From: Acorus gramineus
Lineage: Eukaryota; Streptophyta; Magnoliopsida; Acorales; Acoraceae
Assembly (NCBI GenBank): GCA_030737835.1
Contig: CM060850.1
Location: 23,167,774 to 23,231,773, forward strand
Length of the DNA stretch: 64,000 nucleotides
Direction of reading: 5' to 3'
Part shown: piece after piece, positions 2,412 through 34,303 of the stretch
Layout of the letters: every line of letters begins with the position of its first letter
Position numbering within the stretch: position 1 is the first letter of the stretch
Notes under the pieces: generated by a model
Told to the model about the DNA's origin: nothing
What the model saw: only the letters and a program-made list of their open reading frames with translations
Database searches by the model: none
Position numbers and translations under genes: made by a program

Positions 2412-4428
2412 GAGCATCTCCAACCGAGATGCATATCTCCAAAATGAATCCTGGGGAGGCTCCAACCGAGCTATATTTACAACTTCAAAATGCAGATGGA
2501 AGGGATTTTGCTGCAAATATGCAGCTCGGAGGATGAAATGCAAACTGACTGCATTTCACTGTTCATTCTATTTAAAACCCCTAAATACCCTCCCCAATGC
2601 ATACATTTTTTTTTAATTCCATTTATATCTTTCATCATAAATTCAATTATTAACTCTTTGTAAGTTAAGTTTTAATCTACCCTTTATTAATTTACTAATA
2701 TTATATTATTAGAAAGGTCTCGTCAAGACTTTCAAAATAAGTCTAATATTGATTAAGTTATTACGCATTCATTTTAATTAATTATATCATATCAATTAAT
2801 TTTATATGTATTACTTGACATTATAATAAGTCATACAATTAAAAATTTAAAAAAATTTCTTATTTTAAAATAATTCAAATAACAATTTTCATACATTAAC
2901 TGAATAAACACTAAAATTGAAATACATTACGCTTGGATTAATACATCGAACTTAAAATAAAAATATTACATCGGTTCATTGTCACTTCTTTTTCACAAAT
3001 GTTCAATCAATACATTTCAAAATGTAAAGTGAATATCTTTGTCTTTAATTCTTTTATGTTGAGAAAGAAATCTATTTTCAAAAGAAAAAGCAACAATTTC
3101 TAAATAAGAACACTAGCAATCATGATGTAGGAGGATCATCATAAAAAACTAGTGGTCAAGATGGATCCATGGAAAGTGATTATGCAGGAGGTGAATCATT
3201 GGGAGGTCTATCTGGAGGAAAAAATTATAGAGGTGAATACGGAAGGGGTCAGTACGAAGGTAGTGGTTATGGAGGAGGAAGCGGATTCAACGATGATTTA
3301 CTAGAATATTGGCATTTTCCTATATCTTATCAACTTTTTTATTTCTTTTTTTTTTTATGTATTCTTCATTGTTCTTGTTATTTTCCTTGGGACGGGTTAA
3401 ATAAATCCCCAATTTAGTTTAAATTTTTTTTGTTAAATTTAACCATATTATATTATATTAATTATTTATATATTAAAATTTAAAAAATAAATAAATAATA
3501 TTAATTTAATCAATTTTATATTCATTATTATATTATTATCTTATTATTTAAGTTAATATTTATAAATTAAAAAAAATTGAAGATAAAAATGGAGGGGGTG
3601 GATTGGAGGAGGGAGGGAAACCCTAAAATGTTTTTGTTTGACTAGAAAGAGTGTAAACGAGGGAATCATTTTGTTTTTGTTTCTTTTATTCTTTTATTAT
3701 TATTATTGGGGGATTTGTTGATGAAGTGGATCTGTCAAAAAGGCATGACCGTTGATGAAGTGGAATTTGTAGATTGTGGTGTTGCTCGGTGTTGGAAGTT
3801 GGATCTGGACTGTTGATGAAGTAGAATTTGTGGAGTGTGGTTTTTGTGGACCTTATATGCATATGAATATATGTGTATTTATATATGTATACATATACGC
3901 ATCTATATGTTTTATAAGAGTACTTTATTAGTTTTTATAGAGATAAAATGAGAAATTCAAAGGCATTAATTAACACACTTTGTATTACAATACCCATATT
4001 GTTGTATGCTTTAACAAAAAAAACTTATATTTTAGCCAAGAAAGGATATTTATATAGTTTTCTCTTTTTTCTAAAAAAATAAATTAAATTATAGTCTTTT
4101 TTTTTATTAATTCGATGATATAAAAAAAGTTCAAAAGGATCTTAGTCAGATAGCGATCCAGTTTAGATTTCACATTCTGATTTTGCAAGAAATTAAATAT
4201 TTTAAAAATCAATAATAAAAAAATGATATCGCAGCAAAAAGGTCATACTTTCTGCAACGAAAAATTATTTTGTCGAGAATGACTAAACTATTCCCTACGA
4301 ATTAATATTTCGTCGGTAAAAGTTAACTTTAGCTACGAAATTCAATTTCGCAGAGAAAAGCTCGTAGCTAATGGCCGAATTTGTTGTAGTGACTGCCCCC
4401 CTTTCATTCTCCAAAAATGGAGATGCTC
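2412..4428. mobile_element. DNA transposon with GAGCATCTCCA termini and TTA target duplication (PIF/Harbinger-like, non-autonomous)
   Basis: The left end GAGCATCTCCA (2412-2422) is matched by its reverse complement at 4418-4428. Both ends are flanked directly by TTA (2409-2411 and 4429-4431). A 3-bp TTA/TAA duplication is typical of PIF/Harbinger elements, but the superfamily call rests only on this. The interior is AT-rich and encodes no recognisable transposase. A glycine-rich ORF at 3169-3417 matches nothing I know. A CACTA-type terminus lies near the right end, so the interval may be a nest of two elements. Confidence 0.6.
4250..4391 (-). mobile_element. CACTA-type (En/Spm) transposon terminus
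   Basis: Read on the minus strand, the sequence starts CACTACAACAAATTCGGCC at 4391 and continues with short subterminal motifs of the ACGAAAT / TTCGTCGG type, the usual organisation of a CACTA terminal region. No matching opposite terminus is visible, so this is a fragment or one end of a heavily decayed element. It sits 37 bp inside the right end of the TTA-flanked element. Confidence 0.6.
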
Positions 4429-21519: not shown

Positions 21520-23430
21520 TCTAGTAAGATCGAGTTCCATTTTAAAATTTAAATTTTATGTCATTCTTATTTATTACTAAAATATAATTCAAATATAAAT
21601 TTTAAAGCAATATTTATCTATGAAGATTTCATGTGATTTCAAAATCTCATAGAACTAAAAATTCGAAATTTCAATCTGATTGGTTAAGATTGAGACAAAA
21701 TTCAAACTAACCTTATCCACTAATATTGAGAAACAATTAAATATTTAAATTTTTTTTCAATCTTATTATTTGATTTCAATAAGCTTATTTTCAATGTATA
21801 ATATACTCCCCAGTACCCCTTAAAATTCGGTTTCCATATATATCTTCTTAAAAATCAAATATCACCGAAGCTTAAATATCAATCAGCTCAACAAACTTCT
21901 AACGATCACCCTAATTAGATTCAATCAACGATGTGTTGACCGTTAAGTCCATGAATTTCTTAATAGGTAGGACCATAGTCAACATTACAACTGTCCGTAA
22001 TAAATGCAGTGTCTTAACTAATTGAAGATAAATCAAAATCAATCAACGATTTTGATTGAATCCCAATAAACCAAACAAACTTCAAAACACCTTAAATACC
22101 CCTTCACATAACAAACTTCATCAACTCTCTCTGTTTCTCTCACTTCAATTCAATAAACCTCTTCAAAACCCTCAAATTAACTATCTGTCTTTCAATGCCT
22201 CCCACCCTTGAAACCACCACCACCACCACCAACGCTGCTCAAAAGCGCCTTTGGTTCACCTCGGCAACAGAGAACGACAGCGTCCAAAGCCCTCCGAAGA
22301 AGCGCATTGTGGCCAAGGGGATGTCCCTCCTTGAATGGGGAATTCTCTGCAAAGACCACGGCATCAAATACAGCAGCTTGCGCGCCGACCGACCCCGGCC
22401 TCACCCTATGCGCAGATGGTCCGAGAGCGGCCTACGACCGAAGCTCATCAACGCCGTTGATCCATTCGGGGACCGCGATCCATTGCCGATACAGATGGTC
22501 GCGGTTCCGCTCGGCGTGCAAGAGAGGGACCTCGTCGCGTTGTGCGCGCCCGTGCCCGGCAAGATCGCCGCGTATCTCCTCCCCATGCTTCAACATATAT
22601 GCCACTGTAGCCGCCTCGATAGAGAAGCTTGTTCGCACCCCCTCGCAGTCATCGTCGTCCCGAATCGAGAACTCGCGGAGAAGGTCGTGCGCGTGATGGA
22701 GAGACTCTCGCGTTATATGGCCGACGTGAAGGTGTCGTTGATCCTCGACGAGGTGGACGCGCTTAACAAGCTTGGACGGGGATCCCATGTCATTGTTGGG
22801 ACGGTCGATCAGCTTGGAAAATGCATTGAGAGGAGTACGTTAGTGATGAGACAGAGTTGTGGTTATCTCATCCTGGATGAGGCAGATTACATGGTGAAGA
22901 TGGGGTTCGACAAGGAATTAGAGGCAATGTTGAAGGCCATGCCTCGCAGGAGAACGATCCACGTTTATACGGAGACCATGCCAACATCCCTAGAGAAGCT
23001 CGCGAGGAGGCATCTCCATGACCCGATAAATGTTGCGGTGGACAGAGAGAATTCGAAAGCATTGGAGCAGCGGGCGTCGGAGAAGAAGGTTCAGATGCTG
23101 AAGAAGCGGGCAGCGACGAAGTTATTGTTTCATTGATTGTTTGTTTGCCGAGATGATTGTTAATTCATTGGTAGCAATTTTTGTCAAGTCTACATTCTTT
23201 ACTTTGTAAATTTTCATGAAATATGTGTATCAATGATATATAAGTTTGGATCAGTTGAATTCAAGTTTTGCTTTTTATCTCTGTTATATTAATGATTTCT
23301 ACATATATTGACCAAATGATATATCAATAGATATATTAGTAGTTCCTGAGAGAGAACAGATAACCTCCACAATATCCAGATCAATGTCTATTAACATTTC
23401 CCCTAATCTGACAATATTTTCCATTTTTAT
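21520..23430 (+). repeat. Segmental duplication, copy A (uninterrupted)
   Basis: From about 21520 the sequence is recognisably the same as 26230-26564 and then, without a break, as 33006-34595. The block includes promoter, truncated DEAD-box gene and 3' flank, ending near CACAATATCCAGATCAAT in both copies. Copy A carries the single AACGATCAC target at 21902-21910, so it represents the site before the Mutator-like insertion seen in copy B. Flanks differ by many substitutions and indels, while the coding part differs by very few. Confidence 0.9.
22195..23136 (+). CDS. Truncated DEAD-box helicase-like protein (PRP28/RH21-related N-terminal lobe), copy A
   Basis: Single-exon ORF, 313 aa, ATG at 22195. 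A Thr-rich start leads into PRP28/RH21-like sequence (RPRPHPMRRWSESGL; Q motif DPLPIQMVAVPLG at 95-107). Motif I, normally GSGKT, is degenerate (APVPGKIAA, 118-126). Motif Ia is near normal (PNRELA, 156-161), motif II is intact (LDEAD, 227-231), and the SAT of motif III is replaced (TETMP, 259-263). The second RecA lobe is absent. Without a proper P-loop, SAT and C-terminal lobe, ATP-driven unwinding is unlikely; a binding or dominant-partner role, or an unconstrained relic, are alternatives. The gene is GC-richer than its flanks. The twin copy at 33344-34303 keeps the same defects, so they predate the duplication. Confidence 0.8.
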   Translation: MPPTLETTTTTTNAAQKRLWFTSATENDSVQSPPKKRIVAKGMSLLEWGILCKDHGIKYSSLRADRPRPHPMRRWSESGLRPKLINAVDPFGDRDPLPIQMVAVPLGVQERDLVALCAPVPGKIAAYLLPMLQHICHCSRLDREACSHPLAVIVVPNRELAEKVVRVMERLSRYMADVKVSLILDEVDALNKLGRGSHVIVGTVDQLGKCIERSTLVMRQSCGYLILDEADYMVKMGFDKELEAMLKAMPRRRTIHVYTETMPTSLEKLARRHLHDPINVAVDRENSKALEQRASEKKVQMLKKRAATKLLFH

Positions 23431-26215: not shown

Positions 26216-26564
26216 CAACCTGATTTTATCTACTAAGTTCCATTTTAAAATTTAATTTTTACGTCATTCTTATCTATTACTAAAATATAATTCAAATTTA
26301 AATTTAAAAGCAATATTTATCTGTGAAGATTATCTGTGATTGCAAAATCTCTATAACTAAAAATTTAAAATTTCACTGTTATTTGTTAAGATTGAGACAA
26401 AATTTAAACTAACCTTATCCCCTAATTTTGAGAAACAATTAAATATCTAGTTTTTATTTCCATGTATATACTCTTAAAATTCGGTTTCCATATATATCTT
26501 CTTAAAAATCAAAGATCACCGAATCTTTAAATATCAATAAGCTTCACAACCTTCTAACGATCAC

Positions 26565-27273
26565 GGGTTCGGAACCTCTGTTTCGAAATAACAGAGGTCC
26601 TCTGTTTCGACCAACAGGAAGGCGACATCTGGCGAGTTGTTCACGTGCTCTCACGTGACAGAAACCTCACGTTTTCACTCCGTCTGTTTCGAAATAACAG
26701 AGGGTCTCTCTCCTCCCTCAAAACAAACCAAACCTAACCCCTCTTTCGAAACCCCAGTTCAGACCGCCCCTCGTCGAAGCTTCAGACCGCCCCTCGTTCG
26801 ACCGCCATAACCACCGCCTTCCGAAGCCGTCGCCCCTCGCCACCACCGCCTTCCGACCGTCCGTCGTCGAAGCCCCAGTTCAGACCGCCCCTCTTTCGAA
26901 ACCCATAACCACCGCCTTCCGAAGCCGTCGCCCCTCGCCACCACCGCCTTCCGACCGCCCCTCGTCGAAGCCCATAACCACCGCCTTCCGAAGCCGTCGC
27001 CCCTCGCCACCACCGCCTTCCGACCGCCCCTCGTCGAAGCCCCAGTTCATCTTCCTCGGTGGGTTTTCGAGCTCTTCGATCTTCTTTATCAGCTCTTCGG
27101 TGGGTTTTATTGGGAGGTACATCTCTGCTTGGAGCCCCACTTGCATTTTTTTTTTTTTTCTGTTTTGGGTTTTCAATTATAAGTAATAAATTGAGATTGA
27201 ATGCCTACCCTTCACTTGAAAAAAGAAAAAGAAAAAAACTGTGATGCTGATGATGACATGAATTGAATGGGTC
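26565..27273 (+). repeat. Left terminal inverted repeat of the MULE
   Basis: It matches the reverse complement of the right end over its full 709 bp apart from scattered changes and one missing internal unit. It contains a GC-rich tandem array (about 26757-27050) with three copies of the core CCGCCTTCCGAAGCCGTCGC. It probably supplies the transposase promoter, since the gene begins about 230 bp downstream. Confidence 0.9.
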
Positions 27274-27501
27274 CTGAAGTTGGTATGATATATTTGTGTG
27301 TGTGTGTATTTGAAGATTATTTTTTGTGGAGTTATTTTAATTTGTTGTAGATGATATAGATTTTTTGTAATTTAGAGTGTCATATTTTTGTGGTTTTTAG
27401 ATCTAATCTGATATTTTTTTATGAGTTATTTAATTTCATGCCAATATATAATTATGTTTTTAATTATGTCTTTTTCTTAAAAGGTGATTGTTGATATCAA
27501 T

Positions 27502-29868
27502 ATGGAAGGTGACAATGAGTGTATTGATGAACGTAATGATAATGGTGTGCCTGAAGTTGGTATGGCATTCGATTCCGAAGAGAGTGCATATCAATTTTAC
27601 AACGCATATGCAAGATCAGTTGGATTTAGCATCCGAAGAAGTGGCGTATCGAAGTCTAATGGTATAGTGACAAAGCGAAAATTTTGTTGTTCTAAAGAAG
27701 GGATGAAAGGGGTTGATAAGCGAAAAGTCTTGCACCCGCAGCCAGATACAAGAACAGGATGTGAGGCACATATAGTTATCATTTATCAGTCTTCTGGTGC
27801 TTATTGTGTCACTAAATTTGAACAAAACCACAATCATGATCTTGTAACAACCCCTTTGCGTCACAATTTGAGGTCTCACAGAAAAATTGAAAATGCTCAA
27901 GCTGCTCAGGTTGATATTATAGATGGGTCAGGATTGGCACCAAAAACCGTTATGGATTTGATGAGTGGACAAGTTGGAGGCAGAAGGAATCTTGGTTTTG
28001 TCTTAAATGATGTGAAGTCTTACTTGCGCACTAAAAGAGAAAGTAGAATGGAAAATGGTATTGCGGGTGCTCTTTTTCAGTATTTCAACAACAAGCAACA
28101 GCAAGATCCATCATTCTTTTACTCAATGCAACTTGATGCCGATGAACAAATAACTAATGTGTTTTGGGCTGATTCTAGGTCTATTGTCGATTATGCACAT
28201 TATGGTGATGTAATTTGTTTCGACACGACCTATCGCACAAATAATCATGGGAGGCCATTTGCACCATTCGTTGGAGTGAATAATCATAGACAAACAATTA
28301 TTTTTGGGGGTGCATTGCTTTATGATGAGACAGCCGACTCATTTATTTGGTTATTTGAAACTTTTCTTCAAGCAATGTCAGGGAGACGTCCGAAGACTAT
28401 TCTAACAGATCAATCAGCGGCGATGGCCAAAGCTATTTTAGTTGTCCTACCAGATACTCATCATCGGCTATGTCTGTGGCACTTGACCCAAAATGCAACA
28501 AAACATCTTGGACATCTTTATTCTATCGAAGGCTTCAGAAGTTCCTTCTATGCTTGCATTTATGGGTACGAGACGGAGGATGATTTTCTATATGCTTGGG
28601 ATAACATGCTTGAGAAATACAATCTTCGAGATAATAAATGGCTTCAACAAACTTTTGTTGAGAAGGAGAAATGGGCTCTAGTGTATGGGAGAGACACATT
28701 CTGCGCGGATATGAAGAGTACACAACGTAGTGAAAGCTTCAATGCTCTTCTGAGACGCTACTTGAACTCAAAGCATGATCCATTGCGTTTCTTTCAGCAT
28801 TTTGATAGGGTTATGGATGATCGGCGTGAAAGTGAATTGAGTGCTGATTTCAAGATGATGAATACAGTATCGGTAATTCCATTTAATGCTTTGATGATGA
28901 CATGTGTTTCAAAGGTTTACACGCCCGAGATATTTGAGTTATTTCAAGCAGAGTATGAAAAATTTTTGAATTGTTCTATCTACATTCATCGGGAGGTGGG
29001 ACATATGATAGAGTACAAAGTTCGTAGAGATTGTGGCAGTGAAAGAACCATTTTTTATAATTCATCTAATGAGATGGTCACTTGTAGCTGTAAAAAATTT
29101 GAATTTATGGGTATCCAGTGCTGTCATGTTCTAAAAGTTCTTGATCACAGAAATATTAAGGAGCTTCCACAACAGTATATCTTGAAGAGGTGGACAAGAT
29201 ATGCAAAATCCGGTGTTGTGCATGATATGTGTTCTTCTTCAGTACAAGTTGATGCTATTTTTGATTTGGGAAGACGATTTCAACAATTAAGTCATGGTCT
29301 CATTCAAGTGGCATCCAAGGCATCTGAAACAGATCATTCCACAGAGCTACTTAAACGTCGCACAAAAGAGATAATGGAGGAGGTTGAGATAGATTTGCGG
29401 ACATCATCTCAAAATTTGCAAGATGACAATGAGCAACATGAGGTAGAAAGCAATCTGAACAATGAGATTGCTAAAGGCTTTAAAAGAAGAGGAAAGAAGA
29501 CTGTGGGAGGGAAGCCTCAAAAAAGATGGATCGGCGCGTTGGAGAAGGGATCACGAGGTCAAAGCTCTCAAACTCAACGTGTGTCCCAACATGCGTCCCA
29601 CATTGCGATTGAGAGCCCTCAAACATTTGCGCAAGGAATGAGAGCCCCCATAGTTGAGAACTACGATAGCAGTCAAGGAATGACTTCAATGACTCAATTG
29701 CTTCAGGTACATTTCATTTTTTTGTCGTGGATGGAATTTATATTTCATATATACTTCAACGATGTTAAATCAATTCTATCGCAGGCACAGGAATCCCTTT
29801 TTTATCCTACTCAAATGAGTGAAGCGTCAAATTTTTCTGAAGAATGGAGGAGGAGCACAGATTTTTGA
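27502..29868 (+). CDS. FAR1-type Mutator-like transposase (MURA family), apparently intact
   Basis: ATG at 27502; an acceptor-like tract (cttaaaag) just upstream suggests a leader intron. Unspliced it reads 788 aa. Residues about 23-130 are a FAR1 zinc-binding domain (CCSKEG, GCEAHI, NHNHDL). Residues about 235-330 are the MULE catalytic core: D241 (FDTTY), D303 (ILTDQ), CLWH (324-327); E411 in the TQRSESFN stretch is a candidate third catalytic residue. A SWIM zinc finger C528-x-C530...C540-x-H542 follows, then a basic, low-complexity tail. A 78-nt GT-AG intron (29707-29784) is in frame, so spliced (762 aa) and retained forms are both open. Expected role: excision and insertion of the flanking element by binding its TIRs in the nucleus. 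No stops or frameshifts; catalytic residues are present by eye. Confidence 0.9.
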   Translation: MEGDNECIDERNDNGVPEVGMAFDSEESAYQFYNAYARSVGFSIRRSGVSKSNGIVTKRKFCCSKEGMKGVDKRKVLHPQPDTRTGCEAHIVIIYQSSGAYCVTKFEQNHNHDLVTTPLRHNLRSHRKIENAQAAQVDIIDGSGLAPKTVMDLMSGQVGGRRNLGFVLNDVKSYLRTKRESRMENGIAGALFQYFNNKQQQDPSFFYSMQLDADEQITNVFWADSRSIVDYAHYGDVICFDTTYRTNNHGRPFAPFVGVNNHRQTIIFGGALLYDETADSFIWLFETFLQAMSGRRPKTILTDQSAAMAKAILVVLPDTHHRLCLWHLTQNATKHLGHLYSIEGFRSSFYACIYGYETEDDFLYAWDNMLEKYNLRDNKWLQQTFVEKEKWALVYGRDTFCADMKSTQRSESFNALLRRYLNSKHDPLRFFQHFDRVMDDRRESELSADFKMMNTVSVIPFNALMMTCVSKVYTPEIFELFQAEYEKFLNCSIYIHREVGHMIEYKVRRDCGSERTIFYNSSNEMVTCSCKKFEFMGIQCCHVLKVLDHRNIKELPQQYILKRWTRYAKSGVVHDMCSSSVQVDAIFDLGRRFQQLSHGLIQVASKASETDHSTELLKRRTKEIMEEVEIDLRTSSQNLQDDNEQHEVESNLNNEIAKGFKRRGKKTVGGKPQKRWIGALEKGSRGQSSQTQRVSQHASHIAIESPQTFAQGMRAPIVENYDSSQGMTSMTQLLQVHFIFLSWMEFIFHIYFNDVKSILSQAQESLFYPTQMSEASNFSEEWRRSTDF

Positions 29869-30871
29869 TTGTCATGTGTAATGTTAATTTTTAAAATTCA
29901 CTAGTATACTTGATTTCATTTAATGAGTTCATCACAAAAATTAACATAGATAAATTTATATTACAGGTACTAGATGGAGTTTGGAGTCTTACACAATTCA
30001 AGGTTGTCTGGACTGCTTTTGTCTCTTGGAGTTGCATCAATTTCCATATTCAGTGGAGTGGAGTTGTCCTCAAACATTATAGTGTGTGTGTTCTGCATTT
30101 TGCGATTGTATTATGTATTGTGGAATTCTGATATAATTATGTATTGTGGAATTCTGATTATATTATGTATTGTGGAATTCTGATTATATTATGTATTGTG
30201 GACTTTAAGAATTGTGGCATGTTTGGAGAAGATTTTAAAGTGTTTTGACTTTAGAGTGTCTACTTGTTCTAGAATTAGGACAGTATCTAGTAATGAAGCT
30301 CTTGCATCTACGTTGTAATTTCTAAAGAGGCTTTAGCCTGTACTTCTAATGAATGGAACATCTGATCCATGGTTCATTTCCACAAAAGAAGGGGGACTTT
30401 GGTTTGCTAAATTGCAAGGCCACCATGCACCCCTGGTGAAAATTGTATAAACTTATGTCTGGGCTTCATGTACATATTGCATTGGATTGTAATTCCAATT
30501 CTGCTACGATTCTTTGCATTGGATTGTTTTTTTAACCCCACCCCAGTTCATTTTGTCACTATTGTGATAACAGGAGGTTTTGGGAGTTACTTACTGGGTA
30601 TGAGCAGCAAGATTGCCAAGCAAGCAGATGAACAGAGTGTGCTCTTATATCCCATGTCTAGGATGCTAGTAATATGCAATTATGATTGAATGTAGTTCCT
30701 TCTGTGATAATTCCTGAATTATGTTAATGAAAATGTGGGGCCTTTTCCTTTGTGTTTTTTACTGGATAAGTTTAAACTGATGCTGTGTATGATAAAGTGG
30801 TTTCTTGACAATGGTCTAGTGAATTAAAATGTTACAGTGATGGTTCATGTCACCTGTATGGTTGTCTGCAG
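29869..30871 (+). other. MULE interior between transposase and PPME1 fragment
   Basis: Contains the transposase 3' untranslated part and a three-fold tandem of a TTATGTATTGTGGAATTCTGA-like unit (about 30105-30200). An unassigned piece at 30380-30760, less AT-rich, may be further captured DNA, but no coding family is legible. Confidence 0.5.
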
Positions 30872-31110
30872 CATGGGAGGTGCAGCGGCCATTCATGTGG
30901 CTGCAAAGAAAGTGATACCAAGTGTCGCTGGATTGATAGTTGTAGATGTTGTGGAGGTTTGTTTATTGCATATCATGCCTTAATTTTACAGTACTCTTAT
31001 TTAAGTTGCTGGAGAAAATGTTACTCATCTAAATTACCTGTGTGTAACTCCAGGGAACAGCAATGGCATCATTGATTCACATGCAAAAGATCCTCTCCAG
31101 CAAAAAATAT
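30872..31110 (+). pseudogene. Captured fragment of protein phosphatase methylesterase 1 (PPME1), two partial exons with intron
   Basis: After a gtctgcag acceptor, 30872-30956 encodes MGGAAAIHVAAKKVIPSVAG and then LIVVDVVE. A GT-AG intron spans 30957-31053, and the frame resumes with GTAMASLIHMQKILSSK before a stop. This is the nucleophile-elbow region of plant PPME1, the alpha/beta hydrolase that removes the C-terminal methyl ester from PP2A catalytic subunit; the serine of GHSMGG would straddle the upstream exon junction. Preceding and following exons are not found, so no enzyme can be made. Retention of the intron shows capture at the DNA level, as in Pack-MULEs. Orientation is the same as the transposase. 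Confidence 0.8.
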
Positions 31111-31513
31111 TAAAGACCCAAGTTTTATTTCAGATCAAGGAGGTTAAAGTTGATTACTTATGATCATTGAGTTGCTGTTTAAGGTACCCTTATTAATTTT
31201 TTTTTAAAATGTAATCTTTCCAGGAAACAGTATGAAGGAAAGACTTAGATGGGAACAGACATTAAATCACAAGCCTCATGTTTTTTTTTTATGCAATATC
31301 AAGATTTTCCATCATCATTCACCAACCAAATCATTCATTCATTCAAATACTTTGTGCATTGACCGTGTCAATACTAATGAAACATTCGTTCAAATACTAA
31401 TTCAAATACAAACTTTCATAACCATACACATTCCTTCAAACACCGATGTCCACAACCATAACCTATTGTCCCAAATCAAAATTACAACTCCAAGGCATCA
31501 AAACCAACCAAAA

Positions 31514-31930
31514 TTACATGTGATAAAAAATGAGGATGAGAATTGTGAGAATCAGGACCAACAAGAAAATAGTACAACCGAACATGGCAAGTATGATATG
31601 AGTGATAGGCAAAACAACTGATGTAGGTGGGCATTCATGTGGATGCTGAGCTTGTACTACCTCTCTTTGCAGTGGATCAGTTTGGGAATTCATGCATGTA
31701 GGTGCTGGGCTTGAACTACCTCTCTTTGAAGAGGTCAGCAATGGAGTGGAATGGTCAGTAGTGGAGTGGATGGCATGCTTGGTAACAAATTCATTGGCCT
31801 CTTCAAAATTTTGAAAGCCCTTGAATATTGGCTCTCGAAACTCATGTATTTGTGCTTTGCATTCAGGCCAATTCGTATACACGCCTGGGGTCCTGCCTAT
31901 TGCAACTGCGTAATACTTAAATTTTGCCAT
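31514..31930 (-). CDS. RNase H1-type hybrid-binding domain protein with C-terminal membrane helix, carried by the MULE
   Basis: 138 aa from the ATG at 31930-31928; an ATG nine codons upstream (31957) is possible, but a tattgtag acceptor lies between the two, so the inner start is preferred. Residues 4-50 (KYYAVAIGRTPGVYTNW, CKAQIHEF, IFKGFQNFEEANEF) match the N-terminal RNA/DNA-hybrid-binding domain of RNase H1, also the fold of the caulimovirus viroplasmin family. No RNase H catalytic domain follows. A polar Ser/Thr/Pro middle leads to a strongly hydrophobic helix at about 106-134 and a two- to three-residue tail, a tail-anchor layout. It runs opposite to the transposase, toward the captured fragment. 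Function unknown; nucleic-acid binding at a membrane is inferred. Confidence 0.7.
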   Translation of the reverse strand: MAKFKYYAVAIGRTPGVYTNWPECKAQIHEFREPIFKGFQNFEEANEFVTKHAIHSTTDHSTPLLTSSKRGSSSPAPTCMNSQTDPLQREVVQAQHPHECPPTSVVLPITHIILAMFGCTIFLLVLILTILILIFYHM

Positions 31931-32197
31931 AAACCTACAATAAAACATATCATTCATCTCATATCATTCCAAAAATTAGTACATGATTCAAACCAACTCA
32001 AATAATGAATCCAAATGAGCATACATAAAAAACCGTATGAACCAAACTATCAAAAATTACATACCCACTAAAGATTTCAGTGGAAAATGAGAACTAAAGG
32101 CAAACAGAAAAAAGAAAGCTACTACAAACAGCATTAGAATAAACCCAAGAAGCAAAAGAAAAGAAATTATACAAAGGACCACAAGAGAAGAGAATAA

Positions 32198-33005
32198 GAC
32201 CCATTCAATTCATGTCATCATCAGCATCACAATTTTTTTCTTTTTCTTTTTTCAAATGAAGGGTAAGCATTCAATCTCAATTTATTACTTAGAATTGAAA
32301 ACCCAAAACAGAAAAAAAAAAAAAAATGCAAGTGGGGCTCCAAGCAGAGATGTACCTCCCAATAAAACCCACCGAAGAGCTGATAAAGAAGATCGAAGAG
32401 CTCGAAAACCCACCGAGGAAGATGAACTGGGGCTTCGACGAGGGGCGGTCGGAAGGCGGTGGTGGCGAGGGGTGACGGCTTCGGAAGGCGGTGGTTATGG
32501 GTTTCGAAAGAGGGGCGGTCTGAACTGGGGCTTCGACGAGGGGCGGTCGGAAGGCGGTGGTGGCGAGGGGCGACGGCTTCGGAAGGCGGTGGTTATGGGC
32601 TTCGACGAGGGGCGGTCGGAAGGCGGTGGTGGCGAGGGGCGACGGCTTCGGAAGGCGGTGGTTATGGGTTTCGAAAGAGGGGCGGTCTGAACTGGGGCTT
32701 CGACGACGGACGGTCGGAAGGCGGTGGTGGCGAGGGGCGACGGCTTCGGAAGGCGGTGGTTATGGCGGTCGAACGAGGGGCGGTCTGAAGCTTCGACGAG
32801 GGGCGGTCTGAACTGGGGTTTCGAAAGAGGGGTTAGGTTTGGTTTGTTTTGAGGGAGGAGAGAGACCCTCTGTTATTTCGAAACAGACGGAGTGAAAACG
32901 TGAGGTTTCTGTCACGTGAGAGCACGTGAACAACTCGCCAGATGTCGCCTTCCTGTTGGTCGAAACAGAGAGCCTCTGTTATTTCGAAACAGAGGTTCCG
33001 AACCC
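32198..33005 (-). repeat. Right terminal inverted repeat of the MULE
   Basis: 808 bp, the reverse complement of the left TIR. Its GC-rich array (about 32425-32830) has four copies of the core unit against three on the left; one extra ~98-bp unit explains the ~99-bp length difference. The array yields glycine/arginine-rich ORFs on both strands that are compositional, not genes. It faces the minus-strand RNase H-like ORF and could drive it. Confidence 0.9.
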
Positions 33006-33343
33006 AACGATCACCCCAATCAGATTCAATCAACGATGTGTTGACCGTTGAGTCAATGAATTTCTTAATAGATATTAGATAGGACCATAGTCAACATTAC
33101 AACTGTCCGTAATAAATGCGGAGTCCGTTATAAAGAGTTTGGAGAGATTAATTGATTGAAGACAATTTATCGAAGATTACGATCACGATTTTGATTGGAG
33201 CCCAAGCAACCTAACAAACTTCACAACACCTTAAATACCCACCACTACACATAACCTTCACTCTTTCATCAACCCTCTCTATTTCTCTCACTTCGATTCG
33301 ATTCAATAAACCTCTTCAAAACCCTCAAACTCTCTGTCTTTCA

Positions 33344-34303
33344 ATGGCCCCCACCCTTGAAATCACTATCACCACCACCACCACCACCACCACCACCAAC
33401 GCTGCTCAAAAGCGCCTTTGGTTCACCTCGGCAACGAAGAACGACAGCGTCCAAAGCCCTCCGAAGAAGCGCATTGTGGCCAAGGGGATATCCCTCCTTG
33501 AATGGGGAATTCTCTGCAAAGACCACGGCATCAAATACAGCAGCTTGCGCGCCGACCGACCCCGGCCTCACCCTATGCGCAGATGGTCCGAGAGCGGCCT
33601 ACGACCGAAGCTCATCAACGCCGTTGATCCATTCGGGGACCGCGATCCATTGCCGATACAGATGGTCGCGGTTCCGCTCGGCGTGCAAGAGAGAGACCTC
33701 GTCGCGTTGTGCGCGCCCGTGCCCGGCAAGATCGCCGCGTATCTCCTCCCCATGCTTCAACATATATGCCACTGTAGCCGCCTCGATAGAGAAGCTTGTT
33801 CGCACCCCCTCGCAGTCATCGTCGTCCCGAATCGAGAACTCGCGGAGAAGGTCGTGCGTGTGATGGCGAGACTCTCGCGTTATATGGCCGACGTGAAGGT
33901 GTCGTTGATCCTCGACGAGGTGGACGCGCTTAACAAGCTTGGACGGGGATCCCACGTCATTGTTGGGACGGTCGATCAGCTTGGAAAATGCATTGAGAGG
34001 AGTACGTTAGTGATGAGACAGAGTTGTGGTTATCTCATCCTGGATGAGGCAGATTACATGGTGAAGATGGGGTTCGACAAGGAATTAGAGGCAATGTTGA
34101 AGGCCATGCCTCGCAGGAGAACGATCCACGTTTATACGGAGACCATGCCAACATCCCTAGAGAAGCTCGCGAGAAGGCATCTCCATGACCCAATAAATGT
34201 TGCGGTGGACAGAGAGGTTTCAAAAGCATTGGAGCAGCGGGCGTCGGAGAAGAAGGTTCAGATGCTGAAGAAGCGGGCAGCGAAGAAGTTATTGTTTCGT
34301 TGA
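33344..34303 (+). CDS. Truncated DEAD-box helicase-like protein (PRP28/RH21-related N-terminal lobe), copy B
   Basis: Single-exon ORF of 319 aa, twin of 22195-23136. It is 18 nt longer because of an expanded ACC (threonine) tract near the start. Beyond that tract I count about 14 base differences in roughly 900 bp, about half of them changing residues (E to K, M to I, E to A, N to V, T to K, H to R). The same motif losses are present: no GKT P-loop, SAT replaced by TET, no second helicase lobe; the DEAD box stays intact. The upstream region now begins only about 340 bp from the right end of the Mutator-like element, so its more distal promoter has been displaced by 6.4 kb. Confidence 0.8.
   Translation: MAPTLEITITTTTTTTTTNAAQKRLWFTSATKNDSVQSPPKKRIVAKGISLLEWGILCKDHGIKYSSLRADRPRPHPMRRWSESGLRPKLINAVDPFGDRDPLPIQMVAVPLGVQERDLVALCAPVPGKIAAYLLPMLQHICHCSRLDREACSHPLAVIVVPNRELAEKVVRVMARLSRYMADVKVSLILDEVDALNKLGRGSHVIVGTVDQLGKCIERSTLVMRQSCGYLILDEADYMVKMGFDKELEAMLKAMPRRRTIHVYTETMPTSLEKLARRHLHDPINVAVDREVSKALEQRASEKKVQMLKKRAAKKLLFR

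Follow-up and report, generated by a model that had tools for sequence, protein, structure and literature searches.

Positions 26565–33005 of a 64,000-nt stretch of the Acorus gramineus genome (the window; assembly GCA_030737835.1, contig CM060850.1, here C4) very probably hold a young, structurally complete Mutator-like element (MULE) of the FAR1-transposase type with two convergent genes, the second of which, HBD-TM, is a genuine transposon gene. HBD-TM encodes the hybrid-binding domain (HBD) of RNase H1, a linker and a C-terminal hydrophobic helix, and the same layout recurs beside PIF/Harbinger transposases. Searches for further copies in the same genome covered the 398.6-Mb assembly.

Structure and insertion site of the element

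The element is flanked by exact copies of the 9-bp target site duplication (TSD) AACGATCAC at 26556–26564 and 33006–33014, and the 16-bp termini at its two ends match perfectly. Self-alignment delimits terminal inverted repeats (TIRs) of 709 bp on the left (26565–27273, plus strand) and 808 bp on the right (32198–33005, minus strand), which are 99.2% alike: over 709 aligned bases they differ at 6 positions, of which two are neighbours. The outermost 485 bases of both arms form a single ungapped block with two mismatches. The left arm holds 69/98-nt tandem repeats, and the right arm is longer by one 98-nt repeat unit plus 1 nt. A TSD of 9 bp, in the 8–11 bp range of MULEs, and the presence of TIRs place the element among MULEs. 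The element sits upstream of a DEAD-box gene copy (Pfam DEAD), approximately 330 bp from its likely start codon. This gene has a tandem twin at 22096–23136, and the twin shares the upstream sequence but lacks the element there and has AACGATCAC only once (21901–21909, plus strand), so the insertion postdates the tandem duplication. The original prediction, made from the letters alone, had described a recently inserted element with a perfect 9-bp duplication, exact termini and inverted repeats of 0.7–0.8 kb, and had proposed alignment of the arms as a check on age; each of these features held up on measurement, the arms are not diverged, and the empty paralogous site adds to the case for recent insertion.

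The transposase gene occupies 27502–29868 on the plus strand, with exon 1 at 27502–29706, an in-frame GT-AG intron at 29707–29784 and exon 2 at 29785–29868. As had been predicted, the frame is uninterrupted and of FAR1 type: Pfam FAR1 (PF03101), MULE (PF10551) and SWIM (PF04434) all exceed their cut-offs, and the score of 102 bits for PF10551, against a cut-off of 27.6, marks a MULE-type DDE transposase. The protein contains FDTTY, TDQ and a CxC-CxH SWIM motif, which we take to be its catalytic residues. Database relatives are 39–55% identical (best 120 of 1123 matches, from 4917 candidates), and the named proteins among these 120 are mostly FAR1-RELATED SEQUENCE 5-like, from many plants; a search of PDB sequences with the transposase gave 0 matches.

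At least 61 loci in the assembly match the transposase at E values up to 1e-60 (61 of 1648 candidates scored). Nine copies besides that in the window span exon 1 (L009, L013, L014, L015, L017, L018, L019, L020 and L024), and only L013 and L015 are free of frameshifts and stops. Consistent frameshifting of sister transposases had been named in advance as evidence against a functional element; they are often broken, yet two of nine are whole. L015 has both genes whole and no TSD, and both frames are open, according to the match tables, in the copy at C10:104928/108856. Over 13 copies, the TSD is missing from L015, imperfect in L014, L019 and L020, and located within a poly-C run in L018. The last of these (C1:26438962–26446650), itself inserted in that run, has an additional partial TIR-like stretch inside its left end. 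In L009 other sequence takes the place of the outermost 41 bases of the right TIR, with the target duplication seemingly kept. L009 and L017 share an identical 1-base deletion at base 1422 of the transposase coding sequence despite strongly different TIRs, which could mean that elements have recombined or that a run of C has undergone the same change repeatedly.

The transposase and the two ends show no sequence defect, and to that extent the element is apparently autonomous; movement is presumed from this. A serious minority possibility is that we are looking at a recent but silenced, non-functional copy, mobilised by its sisters only in trans. Most sisters examined are broken, and long MULE TIRs are associated with siRNAs in section 6 of PMC6446971, but in the window copy neither the two genes nor the two ends are damaged as sequence, and the reading of a structurally complete two-gene element remains the one that we prefer.

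The companion gene HBD-TM

HBD-TM is encoded on the minus strand, convergent to the transposase, from a likely start at 31930 (MAKFKYY) to 31514 (138 aa). It matches Pfam Cauli_VI (PF01693) with an E value of 2.6e-19 and, in a search of PDB sequences, RNase H1 HBDs from yeast and human. The opposite-strand ORF of the original prediction is thus a real gene. Its designation there as a non-mudrB companion agrees with the domain by which we identify it, whereas the suggestion that it is an extra of this copy did not survive: it is clade-wide in the genome. Both a chance ORF and one-copy cargo were rejected because the same gene recurs across the element clade.

An AlphaFold model, built from a 3-sequence alignment with the first two residues omitted, gives block pLDDT values of 84–93 across the HBD, which is followed by a linker predicted as disordered and by a helix at residues 107–135; overall confidence is modest (mean pLDDT 67, pTM 0.38). 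The top five Foldseek matches are chains of 3bsu, the human RNase H1 HBD with RNA/DNA, at rmsd 0.7–0.8 Å over 44–46 columns, and the sixth is the yeast domain at 2.4 Å, with E <0.001 for the first match only. HBD-TM therefore belongs to the RNase H1 HBD family (PF01693) in sequence and in predicted fold. Hydropathy averaged over 19 residues peaks at 3.08 in a segment that ends three residues before the C terminus, and the predicted layout is like that of a tail anchor, with a helix of membrane type.

The closest named protein is from Acorus calamus, with 85% identity across 68% of the query. A profile search gave 36 matches, of which 11 are A. calamus proteins (P0003 through its tail alone) and 17 have an RNase H domain; the remaining 8, bacterial or unnamed, carry Cauli_VI alone. 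No named plant besides Acorus is among these 36 matches from 3797 candidates, although the search needs shared 5-residue words and such an absence is weak. P0003 (79 aa) is a gene model that has the HBD-TM membrane tail and no HBD.

Introns in the 5′ untranslated regions are predicted from the sequence for both genes, at 27117–27483 (plus strand) for the transposase and at 31935–32355 (minus strand) for HBD-TM. Both putative donors have the motif GGGAG/GTACATC (slash, predicted cleavage site), which occurs once per strand in the window, in each case inside a TIR.

Distribution and constraint of HBD-TM in the MULE clade

The assembly contains 134 HBD matches (150 of 153 candidates scored), 24 of which are 90–100% identical to HBD-TM. 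A convergent transposase lies 0.7–6.3 kb away at 21 of these 24 loci; the others are C43:650243, C6:10444047 and C10:5032023, the last being a deletion derivative, L011. Counted from the transposase, and among the loci listed, a convergent HBD gene is found at 21 of 23 loci of 93–100% identity, 3 of 5 at 87–92% and 0 of 33 at 68–86%. By this distribution HBD-TM is the mark of a single clade, and its gain or loss took place inside the MULE family. At HBD loci of 49–89% identity, 25 of 26 merged loci had no linked transposase in a proximity test, and a later tally gave 3 MULE partners.

Over 11 copies, HBD-TM has 17 nonsynonymous (N) and 16 synonymous (S) changes against a neutral N/S of 3.37 (binomial p 0.001), and the transposase has 92 N and 79 S changes against 3.84 (p 7e-14). 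Two stop changes in each gene come on top of these counts. Restricting the test to changes found in a single copy gives p 0.016 for HBD-TM and 2e-11 for the transposase. Among 14 other loci, L009, L012, L015, L017, L018 and L024 have an unbroken HBD frame. The codon counts show constraint on both genes, and we regard HBD-TM as a transposon gene of the whole clade that purifying selection maintains, not as cargo of the window copy.

HBD-TM beside PIF/Harbinger transposases

Merging the 134 HBD matches gave 120 loci. In the proximity test, for which the MULE list was then incomplete, 72 of the 120 were linked to a transposase; when every locus was moved by 50–500 kb in 1000 rounds, 1.0 were linked on average and never more than 5. 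Of the 70 loci with less than 49% identity, at least 57 have a Harbinger transposase match no more than 7 kb away; of the 57 listed, 44 have the transposase upstream in the same orientation, 12 are convergent and 1 is divergent. Pfam identifies DDE_Tnp_4 at L048 and the Myb/SANT-like domain PF12776 at L047, and HBD groups iii–v lie in a PIF/Harbinger context. At L051 (C6), read by likeness to L047, a Myb/SANT-type ORF, a transposase-like ORF and HBD-TM are on one strand. L047 is approximately 94% like L051, a likeness that runs more than 500 bp beyond the HBD gene, and has lost about 2.8 kb including the transposase while retaining the HBD gene. L048 and L050 have the same convergent order and are 94.4% identical in the HBD block and 89.5% in the transposase block; the HBD frame of L050 contains a stop. 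In A. calamus, the gene model P0127 fuses DDE_Tnp_4 with Cauli_VI, and the same transposase tail adjoins the HBD in P0128 and P0131 when the sequences are compared by eye. Harbinger element ends (TIRs and a 3-bp TSD) around the HBD gene were not found in the stretches examined. Taken as sequence evidence, these arrangements strongly indicate, short of proof, that the HBD gene lies inside Harbinger elements. The stretches of L045 and L046 gave no MULE transposase match. L046 (C10:9543500–9549500), where HBD-TM is convergent with a Myb/SANT (PF12776) ORF, may be a further context or a derivative.

These layouts may have arisen independently, through at least two captures of host RNase H1 rather than exchange of one module, an explanation to which we give tentative credence. 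MULE-group and Harbinger-group proteins are only 31–33% identical, and gene order differs, being convergent beside MULEs and same-strand or convergent beside Harbinger transposases. On the other hand, the six HBD-TM groups that were aligned have in common the start, the HBD, the linker and a hydrophobic helix ending 3–9 residues from the C terminus, and to our knowledge the RNase H1 proteins among the PDB matches have no such C-terminal tail.

Several observations weigh against a transposon function for HBD-TM. At the 33 listed transposase loci of 68–86% identity, no HBD match out of the 134 lies closer than 10 kb, whichever its orientation, and several of these loci keep open frames of 757–780 aa. 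MULEs of this lineage thus multiply with no HBD-TM, and the gene is not generally required. HBD-TM is frameshifted, interrupted or truncated at 8 of 14 other loci. Its single-pair N/S relative to the window copy ranges from 0.24 to 1.47, exceeding 1 for L012 (1.47) and L017 (1.17), a scatter due to the shortness of the gene, and the counts in the codon test are not independent because the copies are related. It is nonetheless unlikely that HBD-TM is a passenger or structural ballast, descended from an RNase H1 exon that an element picked up, hitch-hiking with successful copies and dispensable for transposition, as the HBD-less clades, the many broken copies and the N/S values above 1 would allow, given the pooled codon constraint, the 24 loci at 90–100% identity, the same HBD-linker-helix layout beside Harbinger transposases and the HBD gene kept by the L047 derivative after transposase loss.

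Nested capture of host DNA

Cargo of host origin lies between the two genes. A fragment of an OPT-type transporter gene, the host copy of which is on C10, occupies 30201–31229 and is kept at 30201–30639, 31101–31125 and 31135–31229. It is split by a 465-bp PPME1 fragment (30638–31102, plus strand) that comprises two partial exons with introns, differs from its donor at C3:8335802–8336278 by one mismatch, and encodes 45 aa matching human PPME1 (E 8e-9). The PPME1 junctions carry 2-nt microhomologies in common with the donor, TG on the left and CA on the right, and 3 acceptor bases are gone relative to L009, a sister copy that has the transporter capture without PPME1. The window copy also lacks two stretches near PPME1 that L009 has. 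Positions 4100–4943 of L009 are 93.3% identical to 4708–5594 of L040, the C10 transporter gene, in which OPT exons flank the captured part on both sides (Pfam); the captured exon by itself has no Pfam match. The gene is presumably yellow-stripe-like. An 88% match at C10:11530207, considered as another element, was rejected since it sits between OPT-matching exons of the transporter gene. PPME1 as the sole captured gene was also rejected, as pieces of the transporter gene surround it. The captured PPME1 piece that had been noted in the element is therefore real, with its donor located, but the single source then implied becomes two, PPME1 being nested inside an older transporter capture.

The fragments of host genes are those of a Pack-MULE, and the transposase of the window copy sets it apart from that class, which has none. 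L010 and L011 are without a transposase. They lie at other genomic places with their own TSDs and have a cargo block 99.5% alike; L011 retains a frameshifted HBD and L010 has no HBD. Judged from their sites and duplications, transposase-less derivatives with the same cargo have also moved. The simplest order of events, which is not proven, would be transporter capture, PPME1 capture, transposase loss and then HBD loss. With both donors and a PPME1-less sister in hand, the nested capture is a clean case of host-DNA pickup by a MULE.

Divergence of the TIRs

Across all pairs of 9 copies, the outermost 200 bp of the left TIR diverge by 0.138, versus 0.052 at four-fold sites of the transposases, a 2.7-fold difference. 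The corresponding values are 9.6% versus 0.6% for the window copy and L012, and 17.0% versus 13.2% for the window copy and L020. This fast divergence resembles, by analogy, that of the tandem-repeat targets of VANC; exchange of TIRs between elements would look alike. The TIRs of sister elements (L012–L020) contain 69/98/167-nt tandem repeats in varying number.

Neighbouring features

The tandem DEAD-box copies at 22096–23136 and 33215–34303 are near-identical in their coding regions and far more different upstream, with indels, which may reflect conversion or constraint. A second FAR1/MULE transposase, of another family, lies at 293–1303 on the minus strand as two ORF pieces (Pfam FAR1 and MULE).

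Discussion

MULEs with an opposite-strand companion gene, capture of host genes and a fungal Helitron with a PF01693 gene are already known. What appears to be new is a MULE clade with an HBD-membrane companion, and the same layout beside Harbinger transposases; in the open-licence PMC full text searched, we found no paper that connects MULE or Harbinger elements with PF01693, viroplasmin or the N-terminal domain of RNase H1.

In maize MuDR, mudrA is accompanied by mudrB on the opposite strand. MuDR shares with the Acorus element long TIRs, a 9-bp TSD and the layout of a transposase with an opposite-strand helper (for the layout, excerpts of PMC9168764 and PMC6446971), whereas the transposase here is of FAR1 type and its companion is an HBD-membrane protein. 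The N-terminal FAR1 and C-terminal SWIM domains are those of the Jittery/FAR1 group (group 36 in Table 1 of PMC6446971), for which the portion of the table concerned lists one ORF, TIRs of 39–292 bp and a TSD of 8 bp or not indicated. With two genes, TIRs of 709/808 bp and a 9-bp TSD, the element differs from these, and we treat it as a variant rather than a typical member because of its second gene, a grouping by domains and not by a tree. Abermu (Hvu_Abermu) MULEs likewise have an opposite-strand companion, ORFR, that varies between lineages; in the excerpted text of PMC9168764, ORFR has no stated domain and the transposase is MuDR-like, whereas HBD-TM has a domain of known fold. VANDAL elements of Arabidopsis share a MULE-encoded companion, VANC, and fast-changing noncoding tandem repeats (excerpts of PMC10398659 and PMC5735166). 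VANC, however, is another type of protein, and the repeats here sit in long TIRs; an anti-silencing role would be assigned to HBD-TM by analogy. Pack-MULEs share the capture of host gene fragments with introns, here PPME1 and the transporter, but the window element keeps its own transposase; in its strict sense the term applies only to L010, which has neither transposase nor HBD, and for the most part to L011.

The domain itself, PF01693, is that of the RNase H1 N terminus, caulimovirus P6 and capE, a gene borne by one Helitron copy in the fungus Pleurotus (excerpt of PMC4289320). RNase H1 and P6 carry other regions, whereas HBD-TM consists of the HBD and a membrane-type helix only, is MULE-clade-wide and also occurs beside Harbinger transposases. 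A title in the reference list of PMC7102451 ties P6 to suppression of the silencing factor DRB4, and an excerpt of PMC6446971 describes long MULE TIRs able to fold into hairpin RNA as silencing targets.

We propose that the FAR1-MULE-SWIM transposase would cut and paste the element, leaving 9-bp target duplications, and that the long TIRs would supply the ends together with the putative promoters and first splice donors of the two convergent genes. The transporter fragment would have been captured first and PPME1 then copied in through the 2-nt microhomologies, which fit template switching during gap repair, as expected from that process. HBD-TM may bind RNA/DNA hybrids or double-stranded RNA arising from convergent long-TIR transcripts, and its binding could lower silencing or protect the transcripts. 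By analogy this is the likeliest single role for HBD-TM, although we hold it with little confidence; the remaining probability is divided among R-loop control at excision or integration, a role at the nuclear envelope or membrane, and no part in transposition at all. Equally speculative is the broader proposal that, in the Acorus lineage, DNA transposons of two unrelated superfamilies rely on one and the same kind of tail-anchored, hybrid-binding helper, passed between Mutator and Harbinger elements and acting on their own hybrid or duplex RNA, against silencing or for transposition.

The function of MULE companions is hard to guess because they often have no recognisable domain. The presence of HBD-TM beside two superfamilies points to a shared, so far unexplained transposon helper, and HBD-TM makes such a function directly testable, since a relative of its domain has been solved with RNA/DNA and the gene recurs beside a second superfamily. 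Transposase clades with and without HBD-TM coexist in one genome, which would aid these tests. If the proposal is true, HBD-TM would represent a new class of transposon-encoded factor.

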